Shown here: positions 11,408-18,079 of the stretch, piece after piece
How positions within the stretch are numbered: the first letter of the stretch is position 1
How the letters are laid out: every line of letters starts with the position of its first letter
Assembly (NCBI GenBank): GCA_903933935.1
Contig: CAIZMB010000144.1
Coordinates: 1-47,305, forward strand
DNA length: 47,305 nt
Origin: an uncultured Cytophagaceae bacterium
GTDB lineage: Bacteria; Bacteroidota; Bacteroidia; Cytophagales; Spirosomataceae
Direction: 5' to 3'
The notes under the pieces: model-generated
The model's database searches: none
What the model was told of the DNA's origin: nothing
Seen by the model: the letters and a program-made list of their open reading frames with translations, nothing else
Made by a program: the position numbers and the translations under genes

Positions 11408-11421
11408 TTAATCTTTTGAAA

Positions 11422-11979
11422 ATGGATTATTTGGATAAACCAGATGGTGAATTATGTGAATTGCTTTTCAAGGGTGATTCAAAAGCCTTTGAACTTATCT
11501 ACAATAGGTATTTCAAGTATTTATATCGATATGTTAATCATTCATTAGGTTCTAAAGAGGATTCAGAAGAGGTTTTGCATGATTTATTCTTAAGTATTTG
11601 GCAAAATCGAAGCAATAAACAGATTTTAGACTTAAGGGTATATTTATATGTTTCAGCAAGGAATTTGATCAATAGACATTTAAGAAATAAAATTAATTTT
11701 TCTAAATATCGGGAGTTTGAGTTGTTGCATAAAGTGTTTAGTAGCAATGAATCTGAAGCAATTACCAACTCAAATGATTTCAATGTTCGTTTAAATTTCA
11801 TTTTAGATTCTATGTCTGAAAAAACAGCCAAAGTGTTTAGAATGAGTAAAATAGAAGAGATTTCTGTGAAAAAGATTTCGGAGCAACTTGATATTTCAGA
11901 AAAGGCGGTTGAATATCATATCACAAAATCTCAAAAGATCTTAAAGGAAAAGTTTAAAGACTTTTATTCAGCAAATTAA
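11422..11979 (+). CDS. ECF-type RNA polymerase sigma-70 factor (Bacteroidetes FecI-like)
   Basis: Region 2 'AFELIYNRYFKYLYRYVNHSLGSKEDSEEVLHDLFLSIWQNR', region 4 'SVKKISEQLDISEKAVEYHITKSQKIL'. ATG at 11422; the track start at 11416 is TTG. Confidence 0.93.
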   Translation: MDYLDKPDGELCELLFKGDSKAFELIYNRYFKYLYRYVNHSLGSKEDSEEVLHDLFLSIWQNRSNKQILDLRVYLYVSARNLINRHLRNKINFSKYREFELLHKVFSSNESEAITNSNDFNVRLNFILDSMSEKTAKVFRMSKIEEISVKKISEQLDISEKAVEYHITKSQKILKEKFKDFYSAN

Positions 11980-11989
11980 ATTTTATATA

Positions 11990-12970
11990 ATGACAAATAA
12001 GGAATTTGACTCACTTAGTGAAAAATTCAATCAAGGCAAATGTACGGAGGAAGAGTTAATGCTCTTGCGAAAATTAACTAATGATAATCTTAATTTTCAA
12101 AATCAATCAAATTTAGAGTCTTCCATTGAGATACAAAATAAAATTTGGGAGAAATTGGATTTGGGTAAGAATACAGGTAAGAGCGTTAAATATTATTGGA
12201 TTGCCTCTGGAATAGCAGCTTCATTTTTGTTATTCTTTGGTTTATTCTTTCAATGGGAATTTAGTAATAAGTTAGAGTATGCTTCTATCCCTAGAAATGG
12301 GGTTGAAACAAAAAATAATGCAAATTCATTGCAAAAAATCACCTTGCCAGATGGGAGTCATGTTTTATTAGGAAAAAATGCTCATATCGTAGTCGCTGAA
12401 AATTTCGGTGTTAAAACTAGAACTGTTTATTTAACTGGTGAGGCATTTTTTACGGTGGCTAAAAATGAAAAAATTCCTTTTTTCGTTCATGTGGATAATT
12501 TAATTACCGAAGTTATAGGTACTTCATTTAAAATAAGTAAACCTACTTCCGATAAAATGATTGAAGTATCCGTTAAAACGGGTAAAGTGTCTGTTTATAC
12601 ACATGATCAAAAGTCGGTTAATAAGTCAAATGGAGTTATTATAACGCCTAATCAAAAAGCTGTTTTCAATTTGATTAGTAGAACTATTAATGAAAGTGTT
12701 GTCGATGTTCCGCTGGTTATCTTACAAAATGTCAAAAAGTCTGATTTTGTATTTGATGATGTAAATGTGGATGAGATATTTAAAAAAATGCAGCAGATTT
12801 ATGGCATTGAAATTATTCAAGTTAATTCCAATATCAATCGATGTGTATTTACTGGTGATTTAAATGGCCTAGATATGTTTAAACAATTGGAGTTTATCTG
12901 TACTTCCATTAATGCTAATTATGAAGTTCGAGGCTCATCAATTTTTATTAATGGTGAGGGTTGTAAATAA
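11990..12970 (+). CDS. FecR family anti-sigma factor
   Basis: Single TM 'YYWIASGIAASFLLFFGLFF', 'ITLPDGSHVLLGKNAHIVV...FGVKTRTVYLTGEAFFTVAKNEKIPFFVHV', C-terminal 'VFDDVNVDEIFKKMQQIYGIEI'; follows the ECF sigma by 10 nt. Confidence 0.94.
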   Translation: MTNKEFDSLSEKFNQGKCTEEELMLLRKLTNDNLNFQNQSNLESSIEIQNKIWEKLDLGKNTGKSVKYYWIASGIAASFLLFFGLFFQWEFSNKLEYASIPRNGVETKNNANSLQKITLPDGSHVLLGKNAHIVVAENFGVKTRTVYLTGEAFFTVAKNEKIPFFVHVDNLITEVIGTSFKISKPTSDKMIEVSVKTGKVSVYTHDQKSVNKSNGVIITPNQKAVFNLISRTINESVVDVPLVILQNVKKSDFVFDDVNVDEIFKKMQQIYGIEIIQVNSNINRCVFTGDLNGLDMFKQLEFICTSINANYEVRGSSIFINGEGCK

Positions 12971-13025
12971 GTTTGAAATTTTAAAAAGAATATTGAGTAT
13001 GGAAAAATAAAAGAAATGAAAATAA

Positions 13026-13053
13026 AGTCGATAATGCGTCAACATTACCGACT
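13026..13053. repeat. Inverted repeat (11-bp stem, one mismatch) in fecR-susC intergenic region
   Basis: AGTCGATAATG-cgtcaa-CATTACCGACT. Confidence 0.65.
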
Positions 13054-13056
13054 AAA

Positions 13057-13104
13057 ATGTACTCATTCAATGGTATTGAATGTTTTCGTTAGACGAAAGT
13101 ACAT
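13057..13104 (+). promoter_or_regulatory. Predicted three-way-junction structured element upstream of susC
   Basis: Outer stem ATGTACT(13057-13063)/AGTACAT(13098-13104) encloses hairpin 1 CATTCAAT-GGT-ATTGAATG (13064-13082) and hairpin 2 TTCGT-tag-ACGAA (13085-13097). All stems fully complementary. Confidence 0.6.
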
Positions 13105-13144
13105 GAGTTATTGATCTTGAAAAAACCTTTAACAATGTAAAATT

Positions 13145-16100
13145 ATGAACATAAAATACAAATCTCCAAGATTACTTTTAAGAGTTATGAAAATTTCTAT
13201 ACAACAACTTTTTCTCAGTTTGATTTTCTGCACGTTTGCAAACGCTCATGTGGCATTAAGTCAGAATGATTTAATTGAAAAGGTTACGATCCAGGCTGAA
13301 AATGCACAGATAAAACGTGTACTTTCATTGATTGAAAAACAAGTCGATTACCGGTTTATTTATAGTTCTAATACAATAAATATAAATAAAAAGGTCAGTT
13401 TGAATGTGACAAACAAAAAATTGGAAGAAGTTCTCAATGATCTTTTTAAATTATTAGACATACAATATTCAGTTCGCGATAAAAGAATTTTATTAAGAAC
13501 TAATGTTGTTTCTAATGCGACTGTTAGTCTAAATAATAATATCATTTTAGAAAAACCTGTCAAGGGAAACGTAAAAGATGAAAATGGCCAAGCTTTACCA
13601 GGCGTTACCATACAAATTCAAGGTACTAATCAAGGTACGCAGACTGATGCAAGTGGTAATTTTTCATTTTCATCGTTAGATGATAAAGAGGTGTTGGTTA
13701 TTTCTTTTGTAGGTTACGTTTCTCAAAAAATTCTGGTTGGTACTAAGTCACTAATCGAAGTTTCTTTAGTTCCGGATAATAAGGCCTTGGATGAGGTGGT
13801 TGTTGTGGGTTATGGAACGCAAAGGAAAAGTGATTTAACAGGTGCCGTTGGAACTATAAAAACAGACGCCATTCAAGAGCGTAGGTCTGCTTCTTTAAAT
13901 CAGGCTATTGCTGGAAGAGTAACAGGTGTAAACGTTTCTGTTAACTCAGGTCGTCCAGGTGGACGTTCCAATATTCGTATCAGGGGAAATACTTCTGTAA
14001 GTGTGGCAAATAACCCGTTATATGTAATCGATGGAGTTATTTTAAATGCATCTGATTTAGCCAATGGTAGTACACCTATTGATTATTTGAATGCGAATGA
14101 TATTTCAAATATTGAGATTTTAAAAGATGCTTCCGCTACGGCAATTTATGGGGCAAGGGGAGCGAATGGTGTTATATTAGTTACTACAAAAAGAGGAAGT
14201 CAAGAAGGTGGTAAAATAAGTTATGACACTGATTTTAGTGTGGGGGTTCTACCTAAAAAAATACCTTTATTGAATTCAACTGAATTTCTATATGTGGAGG
14301 ATCAAGCTTACTTAAATGCGAAAAAATATGATCCAGTAGGTTTTGCCGGCGGAAAATATGTAAATCCTGCCACTAAGCGAACCAACCCTTTATTATTTGA
14401 TTCTAGCGGTAAGCCTCTTTATAATACAGATTGGCAAGATGAATCATTTAGGAAAGCTTTGACTCAGAATCATCAATTGGCCTTCACAGGAGGTAATTCA
14501 AAAGAAAATTATGGATTGTACTTAGGGTATCGAAATGAAGATGGACTTGTAAATGCTTCATGGTTAAAAAGATATTCAGCGCGTTTTGTGATGGATAGCC
14601 AAATAAAATCTTGGATTAAGATTGGTGGAAGTTTAAGTTATAATGACCAAAGCGAAAGCCAAGTAGATCCATTAGGTGGTGGTGGTATTATAACCATGCG
14701 TCAGGTTTTAGAGGCTTTGCCTATTGTTCCGGTTAAATATCCTGATGGAAGATGGGGGAGTAATGAGGATTATGCTGGAATGGAAGGTGGAGGAAGCCCT
14801 ATTCAAGTTTCAGAAGAAAGATTATACTATTTAAAGACTCAATCATTATTGGGTAATGTGTACTCCAATATTAATTTGGCTAAAGGCCTAGAATTGAGAT
14901 CTACTGTGGGAGTAAATATTATTAATCAGGAAACAGATTACTATGGTGGTCGTACTCTAAATTATATTTCTAGAAACCAAGGTGGAGATGCATCTTTGAC
15001 AGCTGATCGTCATAATTCATGGCAAATCGAAAACTATTTGACATATACGCGGAAAATTTCATCCGATCATTCAATAGTAGCTATGTTGGGTCAAGCACTT
15101 CAGCATGTGGATCGTATGAATTTTACTGCGAGAGCTCAAAGATTCCAAGATGATTATTTCCAATTTAACAACTTAGGTACAGGTGCTGTTACTCCAGCTT
15201 CTTCTTCAAGTGTAAGTGGTTATGGTTTGGATTCTTATTTTGGCCGTTTTAATTATAATTTGAAGGATAAGTATCTTTTGACGTTCACAGGTCGTGTGGA
15301 CGGTTCCTCGAAATTTGGAGCTGCTAATCGATATGCCATTTTCCCATCAGCTGCTTTAGCTTGGAAGGTAATCGAAGAAGATTTTATGCAAGATATTCCA
15401 TTTGTTTCCAATCTTAAGCTGCGAACAAGTTTTGGTATTACAGGAAACTCTGAAATTACGGCGTATCAATCTTTGGCTGGATTAGGTAATTATGCGGTTA
15501 TATTTAATAATGCACGCCAAGTAGGTATTGGTATAAACCGATTAGCAAATCCAGATTTACGTTGGGAAAAAACAGAACAAATTGACGCTGGATTAGAATT
15601 AGGCTTATTAAATAATAAAATTAATATTGAAGTTGATCTATACCGTAAATTGACTACCGATATGCTTTTAAGTGCTCCTGTACCATCAAGTAGCGGCTTT
15701 ACCACGGTAAGTCAAAATGTGGGAAGCATGGAAAATAGGGGTGTAGAATTTGCCATAAATTCTGTAAATATTGCGCGCCCGAACTTTACATGGAACACGA
15801 GTTTTAATATCTCATTCAACCAAAACAAGGTAATTGCTTTGACTGGTGGCGCTGATATTTTCTTAGGTAGGACAGTTGTTCGACAAGGCGAGCCTGTTGG
15901 TTCATTTTTTGGTTTTGTTCATCAAGGAACATGGAGTACGGCAGAAGAATCAATGGCTGCTAAGTATTTGAAAAAACCAGGTGATATCAAATATCAAGAT
16001 ACCAACAATGATGGTAAGATCAATGATAACGATCGTGTCATCATTGGAAAAGGAATTCCGGATAGTTTTGGTTCATTTATCAACACCATTACGGTTAAAA

Positions 16101-16555
16101 ACTTTGAATTTATGGTGGATCTTCAATTTATGAATGGAAATGATGTTCTTTTTGGTAGCAAGCACTCGGCTGAAGATAGGGTTAGTATTGCCAACAGCTT
16201 TAAAACTGTTTTAAACGGTTGGACACCTACGAATCAAAGCTCAAGGCTTGCCGAGTTAAGACCTGTTTCTGCTGGATATAATACGAATAATGATACAGAT
16301 AGAATTCAGGATGGATCTTTTTTAAGGGGCAGAAATGCTATGTTATCCTATAAGTTTCCTTCTGAGGTTGCTAGAAAAATGAAAATGAGTCGATTAAGGG
16401 CATTTGTCTCTGTACAAAATTTCTTTTTGTCTACTAAGTTTCAAGGATATGATCCTGAAGTTTCTACCTCTGGAGCTGCTTTTGATCAAGGTTTAGATCT
16501 ATATGCATATCCAAAGGCAAGAACATTTATGGTCGGCTTAAATATAGGTTTATAA
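13145..16555 (+). CDS. SusC/RagA-family TonB-dependent outer-membrane transporter with N-terminal STN (signalling) domain
   Basis: STN-like 'VTIQAENAQIKRVLSLIEKQVDYRFIYSS...', carboxypeptidase-like CNA-B 'VKGNVKDENGQALPGVTIQIQGTNQGTQTDASGNFSF', TonB box 'DEVVVVGYGTQRKSDLTGAV', plug 'GRPGGRSNIRIRGNTSV...NPLYVIDGV'. Confidence 0.97.
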   Translation: MNIKYKSPRLLLRVMKISIQQLFLSLIFCTFANAHVALSQNDLIEKVTIQAENAQIKRVLSLIEKQVDYRFIYSSNTININKKVSLNVTNKKLEEVLNDLFKLLDIQYSVRDKRILLRTNVVSNATVSLNNNIILEKPVKGNVKDENGQALPGVTIQIQGTNQGTQTDASGNFSFSSLDDKEVLVISFVGYVSQKILVGTKSLIEVSLVPDNKALDEVVVVGYGTQRKSDLTGAVGTIKTDAIQERRSASLNQAIAGRVTGVNVSVNSGRPGGRSNIRIRGNTSVSVANNPLYVIDGVILNASDLANGSTPIDYLNANDISNIEILKDASATAIYGARGANGVILVTTKRGSQEGGKISYDTDFSVGVLPKKIPLLNSTEFLYVEDQAYLNAKKYDPVGFAGGKYVNPATKRTNPLLFDSSGKPLYNTDWQDESFRKALTQNHQLAFTGGNSKENYGLYLGYRNEDGLVNASWLKRYSARFVMDSQIKSWIKIGGSLSYNDQSESQVDPLGGGGIITMRQVLEALPIVPVKYPDGRWGSNEDYAGMEGGGSPIQVSEERLYYLKTQSLLGNVYSNINLAKGLELRSTVGVNIINQETDYYGGRTLNYISRNQGGDASLTADRHNSWQIENYLTYTRKISSDHSIVAMLGQALQHVDRMNFTARAQRFQDDYFQFNNLGTGAVTPASSSSVSGYGLDSYFGRFNYNLKDKYLLTFTGRVDGSSKFGAANRYAIFPSAALAWKVIEEDFMQDIPFVSNLKLRTSFGITGNSEITAYQSLAGLGNYAVIFNNARQVGIGINRLANPDLRWEKTEQIDAGLELGLLNNKINIEVDLYRKLTTDMLLSAPVPSSSGFTTVSQNVGSMENRGVEFAINSVNIARPNFTWNTSFNISFNQNKVIALTGGADIFLGRTVVRQGEPVGSFFGFVHQGTWSTAEESMAAKYLKKPGDIKYQDTNNDGKINDNDRVIIGKGIPDSFGSFINTITVKNFEFMVDLQFMNGNDVLFGSKHSAEDRVSIANSFKTVLNGWTPTNQSSRLAELRPVSAGYNTNNDTDRIQDGSFLRGRNAMLSYKFPSEVARKMKMSRLRAFVSVQNFFLSTKFQGYDPEVSTSGAAFDQGLDLYAYPKARTFMVGLNIGL

Positions 16556-16582
16556 AAAATATCAATTTAAAAATATAATACG

Positions 16583-18079
16583 ATGAAATACACGATAAAA
16601 AAATACTTGATATTAGCCATCGGCTCTTTAATCATTTTTAGCGGATGCTCTAAGTTTTTAGAAGAACCTGATAAGTCAAATTTTACTAGAGAGAACTATT
16701 TTACTAAGCCTGAACATGCAGAAAGTATCATAAATTCGATTTATGAAAACATGCGAAATGTATTGGGTGGTGGTTTTAATGGGGCACCATGGATGATGCT
16801 TGAATTTGCCACTGGATTAGCAAATACAGAACTTGGACAAGCTCAGAATAGCATCTTTGTTCGAAACCTTGTAAATAATTCAGATAATGCATATGGCCAA
16901 ACATATTGGACTAGTCATTATAAGGGAATTGGTAATGCTAATTTAGCGATTGCTAAAATTCCAGGCATAAAGATGGATGAAATAGCTAAGAAAAAATTCT
17001 TAGGCGAAGCTAGATTTTTGAGAGCTTTATACTACTTTGATTTGGTTCGTATCTTTGGATCTGTACCATTAATTTCTGAGCCAATTGACTTAAGTTCAAA
17101 AGATTTATATCCTGAGCCAGCAAGTGTAGAAAATATCTACAAATTAATTGAATCTGATTTACTTGAAGCTGAAAAGTCAGGTCTTCCATTTAGAGATGCA
17201 TCTGGAAGGGTTTCCATTGGAGCGATCAAATCACTTTTGTCTAGTGTTTATTTAACGATGGCAGGGTTTCCGCTTAATAAAACTGAGAATTTTGCTAAGG
17301 CGGCTGAAAAGGCATTGGACGTAATTAATTCGAATCAGTTTACCTTATTTGCTTCTTATGATGACCTTCATTTGGCTTCAAGAAAAAATAGTGTTGAGAA
17401 TATCTTCCAAGTTCAATATTTAGAAAATATTTTGCCTTCCAATTGGCAAACCTCCATTATTCCGTACAACCAAGGTATTTCTAATTACACGGATGAGACA
17501 GGAGCTATTTTTGCTAACAAAGAATTTGTAGAATCCTATGAAAAAGGAGATAAAAGGGCAGCAGAGAAGCAGTTTTATTATTCAAGTTATTCCTTACGAG
17601 GCAATAGAACTCAATCCAAAAATCTAGGAGGTTATTACTTGTTTAAGCATTTTGATGTGTTAGCTCAAACTTCCACCACGAGTAGTGGTTTAAATTGGAC
17701 CTTGATAAGGTACCCAGAAGTACTATTAACCTATGCAGAAGCTGCAAATGAAACAGGTGGTCCTAGTGCTACTGTTTTAAATGCGATTAACTTAGTCCGT
17801 AAAAGAGCTGAATTACCTGCATTGGAAGGACTTTCAAAGGACCAATTGCGTGAGGCAATCTGGAGAGAAAGATTTTATGAACTTAGTTTTGAAAATAAAA
17901 CTTGGTATGACATGGTTAGACTTAGAAAAGCTTTCAATGTAAGTACTAAGAAATTTGATGCTTATGTTGGTCATAAATTCTCTTATGGACCTACTCTTTC
18001 TGAAAAAGAATTATTATTTCCAATTCCGACAGCCGAGATTAGAAACAATAATAAGCTGAAACAAAACAAAGGGTATTAA
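16583..18079 (+). CDS. RagB/SusD-family nutrient-binding outer-membrane lipoprotein
   Basis: Lipobox 'SLIIFSGCSKFLEEPDKS', 'FLGEARFLRALYYFDLVRIFGSVPLI', C-terminal 'ELSFENKTWYDMVRLRK...FPIPTAEIRNNNKLKQNKGY'. Confidence 0.96.
   Translation: MKYTIKKYLILAIGSLIIFSGCSKFLEEPDKSNFTRENYFTKPEHAESIINSIYENMRNVLGGGFNGAPWMMLEFATGLANTELGQAQNSIFVRNLVNNSDNAYGQTYWTSHYKGIGNANLAIAKIPGIKMDEIAKKKFLGEARFLRALYYFDLVRIFGSVPLISEPIDLSSKDLYPEPASVENIYKLIESDLLEAEKSGLPFRDASGRVSIGAIKSLLSSVYLTMAGFPLNKTENFAKAAEKALDVINSNQFTLFASYDDLHLASRKNSVENIFQVQYLENILPSNWQTSIIPYNQGISNYTDETGAIFANKEFVESYEKGDKRAAEKQFYYSSYSLRGNRTQSKNLGGYYLFKHFDVLAQTSTTSSGLNWTLIRYPEVLLTYAEAANETGGPSATVLNAINLVRKRAELPALEGLSKDQLREAIWRERFYELSFENKTWYDMVRLRKAFNVSTKKFDAYVGHKFSYGPTLSEKELLFPIPTAEIRNNNKLKQNKGY

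Follow-up and report, generated by a model that had tools for sequence, protein, structure and literature searches.

What do the dense inverted repeats between a FecR-type anti-sigma factor gene and the susC gene that follows it encode, and on which strand are they read? The window analyzed here, the whole 47,305-nt stretch of DNA from a freshwater bacterium of the genus Aquirufa (family Spirosomataceae), carries on its plus strand an ECF sigma factor gene (positions 11416–11979), fecR (11990–12970), a susC gene with an STN domain (13145–16555) and susD (16583–18079). The repeats occupy the fecR-susC gap of 174 nt, after the sigma factor/fecR pair and ahead of the susC/susD genes (13145–18079). 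A repeat or mobile element was rejected, since a DNA search (E 0.001) found no further copy of the gap in the same genome. Our results indicate that the minus strand at 13018–13132 is quite probably the gene of a structured cis-antisense small RNA of ~115 nt, acting by the mechanism proposed below, with susC as its presumed target.

Fold, strand and predicted ends of the element

An earlier sequence-only reading had listed several inverted repeats, all of which were present where it placed them. An outer stem, ATGTACT/AGTACAT (13057–13063/13098–13104), encloses two hairpins, CATTCAAT-GGT-ATTGAATG (13064–13082) and TTCGT-TAG-ACGAA (13085–13097), and thus forms a three-way junction (13057–13104); positions 13026–13053 form an 11-bp hairpin that has one A·C mismatch when read on the plus strand. 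The 80-nt plus-strand segment 13026–13105 folded beyond chance (MFE of -22.3 kcal/mol; 200 shuffles averaged -12.5 kcal/mol and none did as well; z = -3.8), whereas the 151-nt segment proposed for that comparison, 13000–13150, did not stand out (z = -1.4; 19 of 200 shuffles). The minus strand folded better than the plus strand, both at 13020–13110 (-27.4 kcal/mol, z = -5.7, versus z = -3.2) and over the whole predicted RNA, 13018–13132 (-28.7 kcal/mol, z = -4.5, versus z = -2.2). The minus fold was clearly better because the A·C mismatch of the 13026–13053 hairpin and a loop-adjacent C·A become G·U on this strand, giving 12 unbroken pairs. A competing pairing, ACTCAT/ATGAGT, had been thought to allow switching; its probability in the minus-strand ensemble was 0.000 and it cost 6.2 kcal/mol, so the switch was unsupported and was abandoned.

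A pattern scan of 12900–13300 detected a single intrinsic terminator, which lies on the minus strand (hairpin 13053–13026 with 12 pairs, tail TTATTTTCAT; shuffles, mean 0.0), followed by a U-tract (TTATTTTC) at 13025–13018; in the same scan the plus-strand hairpin at 13026–13053 was no terminator. This hairpin, previously taken for a separate element adjacent to the junction, is therefore better read as the terminator of a minus-strand RNA. The same strand also showed a promoter-like layout, TTGG-N20-TAATTTTA, with a -33 box (CTTGG, 13170–13166) inside susC and, 20 nt downstream, a -7 box (TAATTTTA, 13145–13138) that overlaps the susC start codon. For the primary sigma factor of Bacteroidota, PMC7366714 gives TAnnTTTG as the -7 consensus. 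In the window, the last base (G) of this consensus is missing from the -7 box, and the -33 box is also an imperfect match. A scan of the window region for sigma-70 promoters did not exceed shuffles, an outcome to be expected in Bacteroidota. From the promoter and terminator positions and the minus fold, the RNA was predicted to start near 13132 and to end near 13018. Its 5' hairpin (13107–13133, minus strand) is weak in the window and depends on the exact start; a strong counterpart is predicted in Runella and other loci. One loop of the window contains UUGA, a U-turn (YUNR). As an antisense hallmark this motif was rejected, since only 12 of 47 distinct loops had YUNR (6 on the complement).

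Terminators and promoter-like boxes in fecR-susC gaps

FecR_C matches in Spirosomataceae genomes yielded 111 fecR-susC gaps, 93 of which were at least 60 nt long. With a threshold of -8 kcal/mol, 69 of these 93 gaps had a minus-strand terminator and 12 a plus-strand terminator, with dinucleotide shuffles giving 0.16 and 0.03 per gap, respectively; at -12 kcal/mol the numbers were 65 and 8. About one-quarter of the family's gaps were without a terminator. Among 64 other tandem gaps of related loci, used as a control, only 4 had an opposite-strand terminator (Fisher p = 1.6e-16; such p-values are indicative, since loci that share a genome or come from related genomes partly depend on one another). 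When hairpins were collected by a strand-neutral rule, 85 G·U pairs fell on the minus strand and 13 on the plus. An A-run 5' of the hairpin, the mark of a minus-strand terminator, was present in 43 cases and a T-run 3' of it in 0.

The promoter-like sequence recurred as well. In 65 loci, 45 minus-strand matches to TAnnTTT(G) fell in the 10-nt bin opposite the susC start codon. The -7 box lined up exactly with the susC ATG in 42 of the 65 terminator loci, compared with 1 of 64 other tandem genes and 9 of 42 fecR-susC gaps without such a terminator. In related loci, TTG lay most often 19–20 nt upstream of the -7 box.

These data bear on the possibility that the element is instead a cis-acting leader of the plus-strand susC mRNA, in which the three-way junction directly controls susC translation or decay. 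Folding is seen on the plus strand too (z = -3.2 to -3.8), and the short leader ORFs described below suggest that a sense transcript covers the element. However, the asymmetry of G·U pairs and T-runs points to the minus strand, no plus-strand housekeeping promoter motif stood out in related gaps, and the plus-strand hairpin does not terminate; we therefore consider a cis-acting leader unlikely. Among the options offered by the sequence-only reading (leader of susC, small RNA, cruciform target), the small RNA is the one favored by the terminator, the promoter, the G·U bias and the distant copies, although on the minus strand, which that reading had left out of consideration.

Conservation and covariation of the predicted RNA

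The element was kept in 7 Aquirufa genomes, including that of the window, with 92–100% identity, and the outermost pair of the three-way junction showed a compensatory A-U to G-C change in 2 of the 7. A covariance model (R1) built from these seven sequences only was run over 223 genomes of Spirosomataceae. Of 13 non-orthologous loci inspected, 11 lay antisense in fecR-susC gaps by the susC start, other genera included; the other two were on the sense strand (L284) and at a contig end (L283). With R1, the genome of the window itself yielded one further copy, which lies at a different fecR-susC pair (L145, contig C84). The RNA predicted at that locus has a similar 5' part, but where the window has the three-way junction it has one hairpin. 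Several weaker R1 matches kept the terminator and the 5' part and did not keep the junction.

Covariation was scored on a model-guided alignment of 20 sequences, a MAFFT alignment of 11 divergent bodies being too poor. In the 20-sequence alignment, 94.7% of cells pair and 25 of 32 pairs changed on both sides. The covariation score was 0.342 versus 0.151 in shuffles (0 of 500), and slid controls reached at most 0.066, values that lean towards the structure because the alignment was fitted to it. In two loci (L275 and L276), CTCAAAT/GTTTGAG replaces the CATTCAAT/ATTGAATG hairpin within the same junction, and each of these sequences folds so alone. Compensatory covariation across homologous loci, expected if the structure predicted earlier is a real one, was thus found. 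Among 45 predicted RNA bodies, terminators excluded, the mean z was -2.1 on the minus strand versus -1.2 on the plus strand. Fifteen of the 45 adopted a three-way junction (shuffles, 5), and since the plus strand also gave 15, this count alone cannot separate the strands.

In Runella and Telluribacter, whose SusC proteins are 69–73% identical to that of the window, the gap sequence looked unrelated and the layout was the same, with a 5' hairpin and a later hairpin followed by a T-run on the minus strand. In Runella, a CCTCC/GGAGG stem encloses two hairpins on the minus strand, and the hairpin before the T-run again shows G·U on the minus strand at a plus-strand A·C, with one compensatory change. 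Minus-strand terminators were also detected in fecR-susC gaps of Tannerella, Massilibacteroides, Mucilaginibacter, Prevotella, Pedobacter and Arenibacter loci. The orthologous gap of Aquirufa beregesia (SusC 86% identical) contains no such RNA, indicating that the RNA is dispensable at this locus. That gap (L072, 144 nt) keeps the -7 box sequence by susC and has neither the terminator hairpin nor the junction, so the RNA has been lost or replaced there.

The loop of the terminator hairpin, AUGUUGACGCAU, was nearly invariant across genera (the window, L275, L276, L281, L282, L283 and L285), and the rest of the RNA varied. This pattern would fit a small RNA of the minus strand whose targets are other mRNAs, reached in trans, its position by susC being historical, and in Bacteroides the FopS RNAs do act in trans on susC mRNAs (PMC11697453). 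We regard such an RNA as quite unlikely in view of the very strong association with fecR-susC gaps and of the great differences between the bodies of paralogues, as expected of cis pairs. A DNA element, that is, a cruciform or a binding site of the ECF/FecR system, would explain why inverted repeats are so dense where a regulator pair adjoins the operon it controls and is nevertheless hardly credible, because DNA symmetry predicts neither the one-strand G·U pairs nor the one-side T-runs counted above, and because the compensatory changes swap sequence and keep pairs.

A search of the window region with 4227 Rfam models returned no match except a chance snoRNA at E 4.6, and none of 20 related loci reached a gathering score. 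A riboswitch or other described cis-regulatory RNA of a known Rfam family was therefore rejected. The proposed antisense RNA gene is supported by its terminator, its promoter-like sequence, its conservation, its covariation and its strand.

Proposed action on susC and relation to known antisense RNAs

Between fecR and the terminator hairpin, the sense strand contained an ORF of at least 4 codons in 43 of 60 loci, compared with 22 in shuffles. The window itself has a leader ORF of three codons, MEK-stop (12999–13010, plus strand), and MEK or MDK was found in 7 of 7 Aquirufa, with MDK-stop in L064 and L080. The leader ORFs ended in Pro-Pro-stop in 7 of the 60 loci (L168, L179, L192, L194, L201, L219 and L235) and in Ser-Ser-stop in 6 (L189, L200, L208, L216, L228 and L236), with varied synonymous codons; shuffles gave 0.16 of each and never more than 2. 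Judged by these features, the leader ORFs look translated, and pausing at the stop codon is a possible role. The literature searched yielded no description of susC leaders that end in this way; short ORFs in long 5' UTRs are mentioned in general terms in PMC7366714. In eight loci (L202, L220, L234, L238, L245, L246, L249 and L255), the motif TTGCCTATG (or ATGCCTATG) was present at the start of the leader ORF, on the sense strand upstream of the terminator hairpin, often preceded by AACC or TTAACC stretches. This motif may serve as the context of a start codon or belong to a promoter of the ECF type.

We propose that the housekeeping RNA polymerase would start the RNA at the TTTG/TAnnTTTG-type promoter whose -7 box lies over the susC start codon. 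Transcription would then proceed away from susC towards fecR and end at the 13053–13026 hairpin and its U-tract, and the product would fold into the 5' hairpin, the three-way junction and the terminator. Such an RNA would be complementary at every base to the sequence immediately preceding susC. The leader ORFs suggest that the susC mRNA starts further upstream; if its start lies upstream of 13018, the RNA could pair with this leader, and the plus-strand leader is probably its target. Pairing may block susC translation or lead to mRNA decay, and the opposed promoters could add transcriptional interference. By analogy with DonS, susCD expression would be lowered, most probably at times when the ECF sigma factor of the locus is inactive. 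In PMC10994844, antisense RNAs of B. thetaiotaomicron correlate both negatively and positively with their cognate operons, so the sign of the effect is something that we infer here. A more elaborate arrangement is a two-part RNA switch, which combines the structured antisense RNA, started from a promoter that overlaps the first codon of susC, with a sense-strand leader peptide. The peptide often ends in Pro-Pro- or Ser-Ser-stop directly ahead of the segment covered by the antisense RNA, and ribosome pausing at the stop would decide whether the antisense RNA pairs. We put this forward tentatively, as an idea with a small though real chance of being correct.

The PUL-associated antisense RNAs described so far are from gut Bacteroides, and Rfam is without a family of the present kind. 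On our data, such an arrangement appears to be the rule at the ECF-regulated susC loci of Spirosomataceae and to occur in other Bacteroidota families as well. The RNA of the window is most likely one of a large, mostly unrecorded set that faces these transporters across a bacterial family. The set can be found from sequence alone, by its recognizable promoter placement and, in part of it, by a covarying fold, and its strand, ends and targets are directly testable in cultivable relatives such as Runella and Aquirufa.

Two groups of known RNAs invite comparison. FopS and GibS of Bacteroides thetaiotaomicron repress SusC-type transporters near the start codon (PMC11697453), and the RNA predicted here would likewise be a small RNA near the start codon of such a transporter. 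FopS belongs to a trans-acting, multicopy family, carries its seed in an unpaired 5' region ahead of a terminator (PMC11697453) and is covered by an Rfam model, whereas the present RNA is cis-encoded, is predicted to be structured throughout and has no Rfam match. The closer resemblance is to DonS. According to PMC7366714, DonS and the other PUL-associated cis-antisense RNAs of Bacteroides (Cao 2016) are divergent to susC homologues and 78–128 nt long, and DonS is reported to lower the expression of its susC partner. Like these, the present RNA would be a single one per susC locus. Its length, taken from the predicted ends, would be ~115 nt. It likewise lies on the strand opposite susC, in the gap between the anti-sigma factor gene and susC, with a minus-strand terminator and promoter-like boxes that recur family-wide. 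Unlike DonS, it is found in Spirosomataceae, at an ECF/FecR-linked susC. Beyond what the consulted passages of PMC7366714 and PMC10994844 describe for DonS, further features here are a conserved three-domain fold, covarying in some members of the set, and the overlap of the -7 box with the susC start codon. On this analysis, the element is best described as a candidate for a structured susC-antisense small RNA, absent from Rfam and DonS-like, outside Bacteroides.
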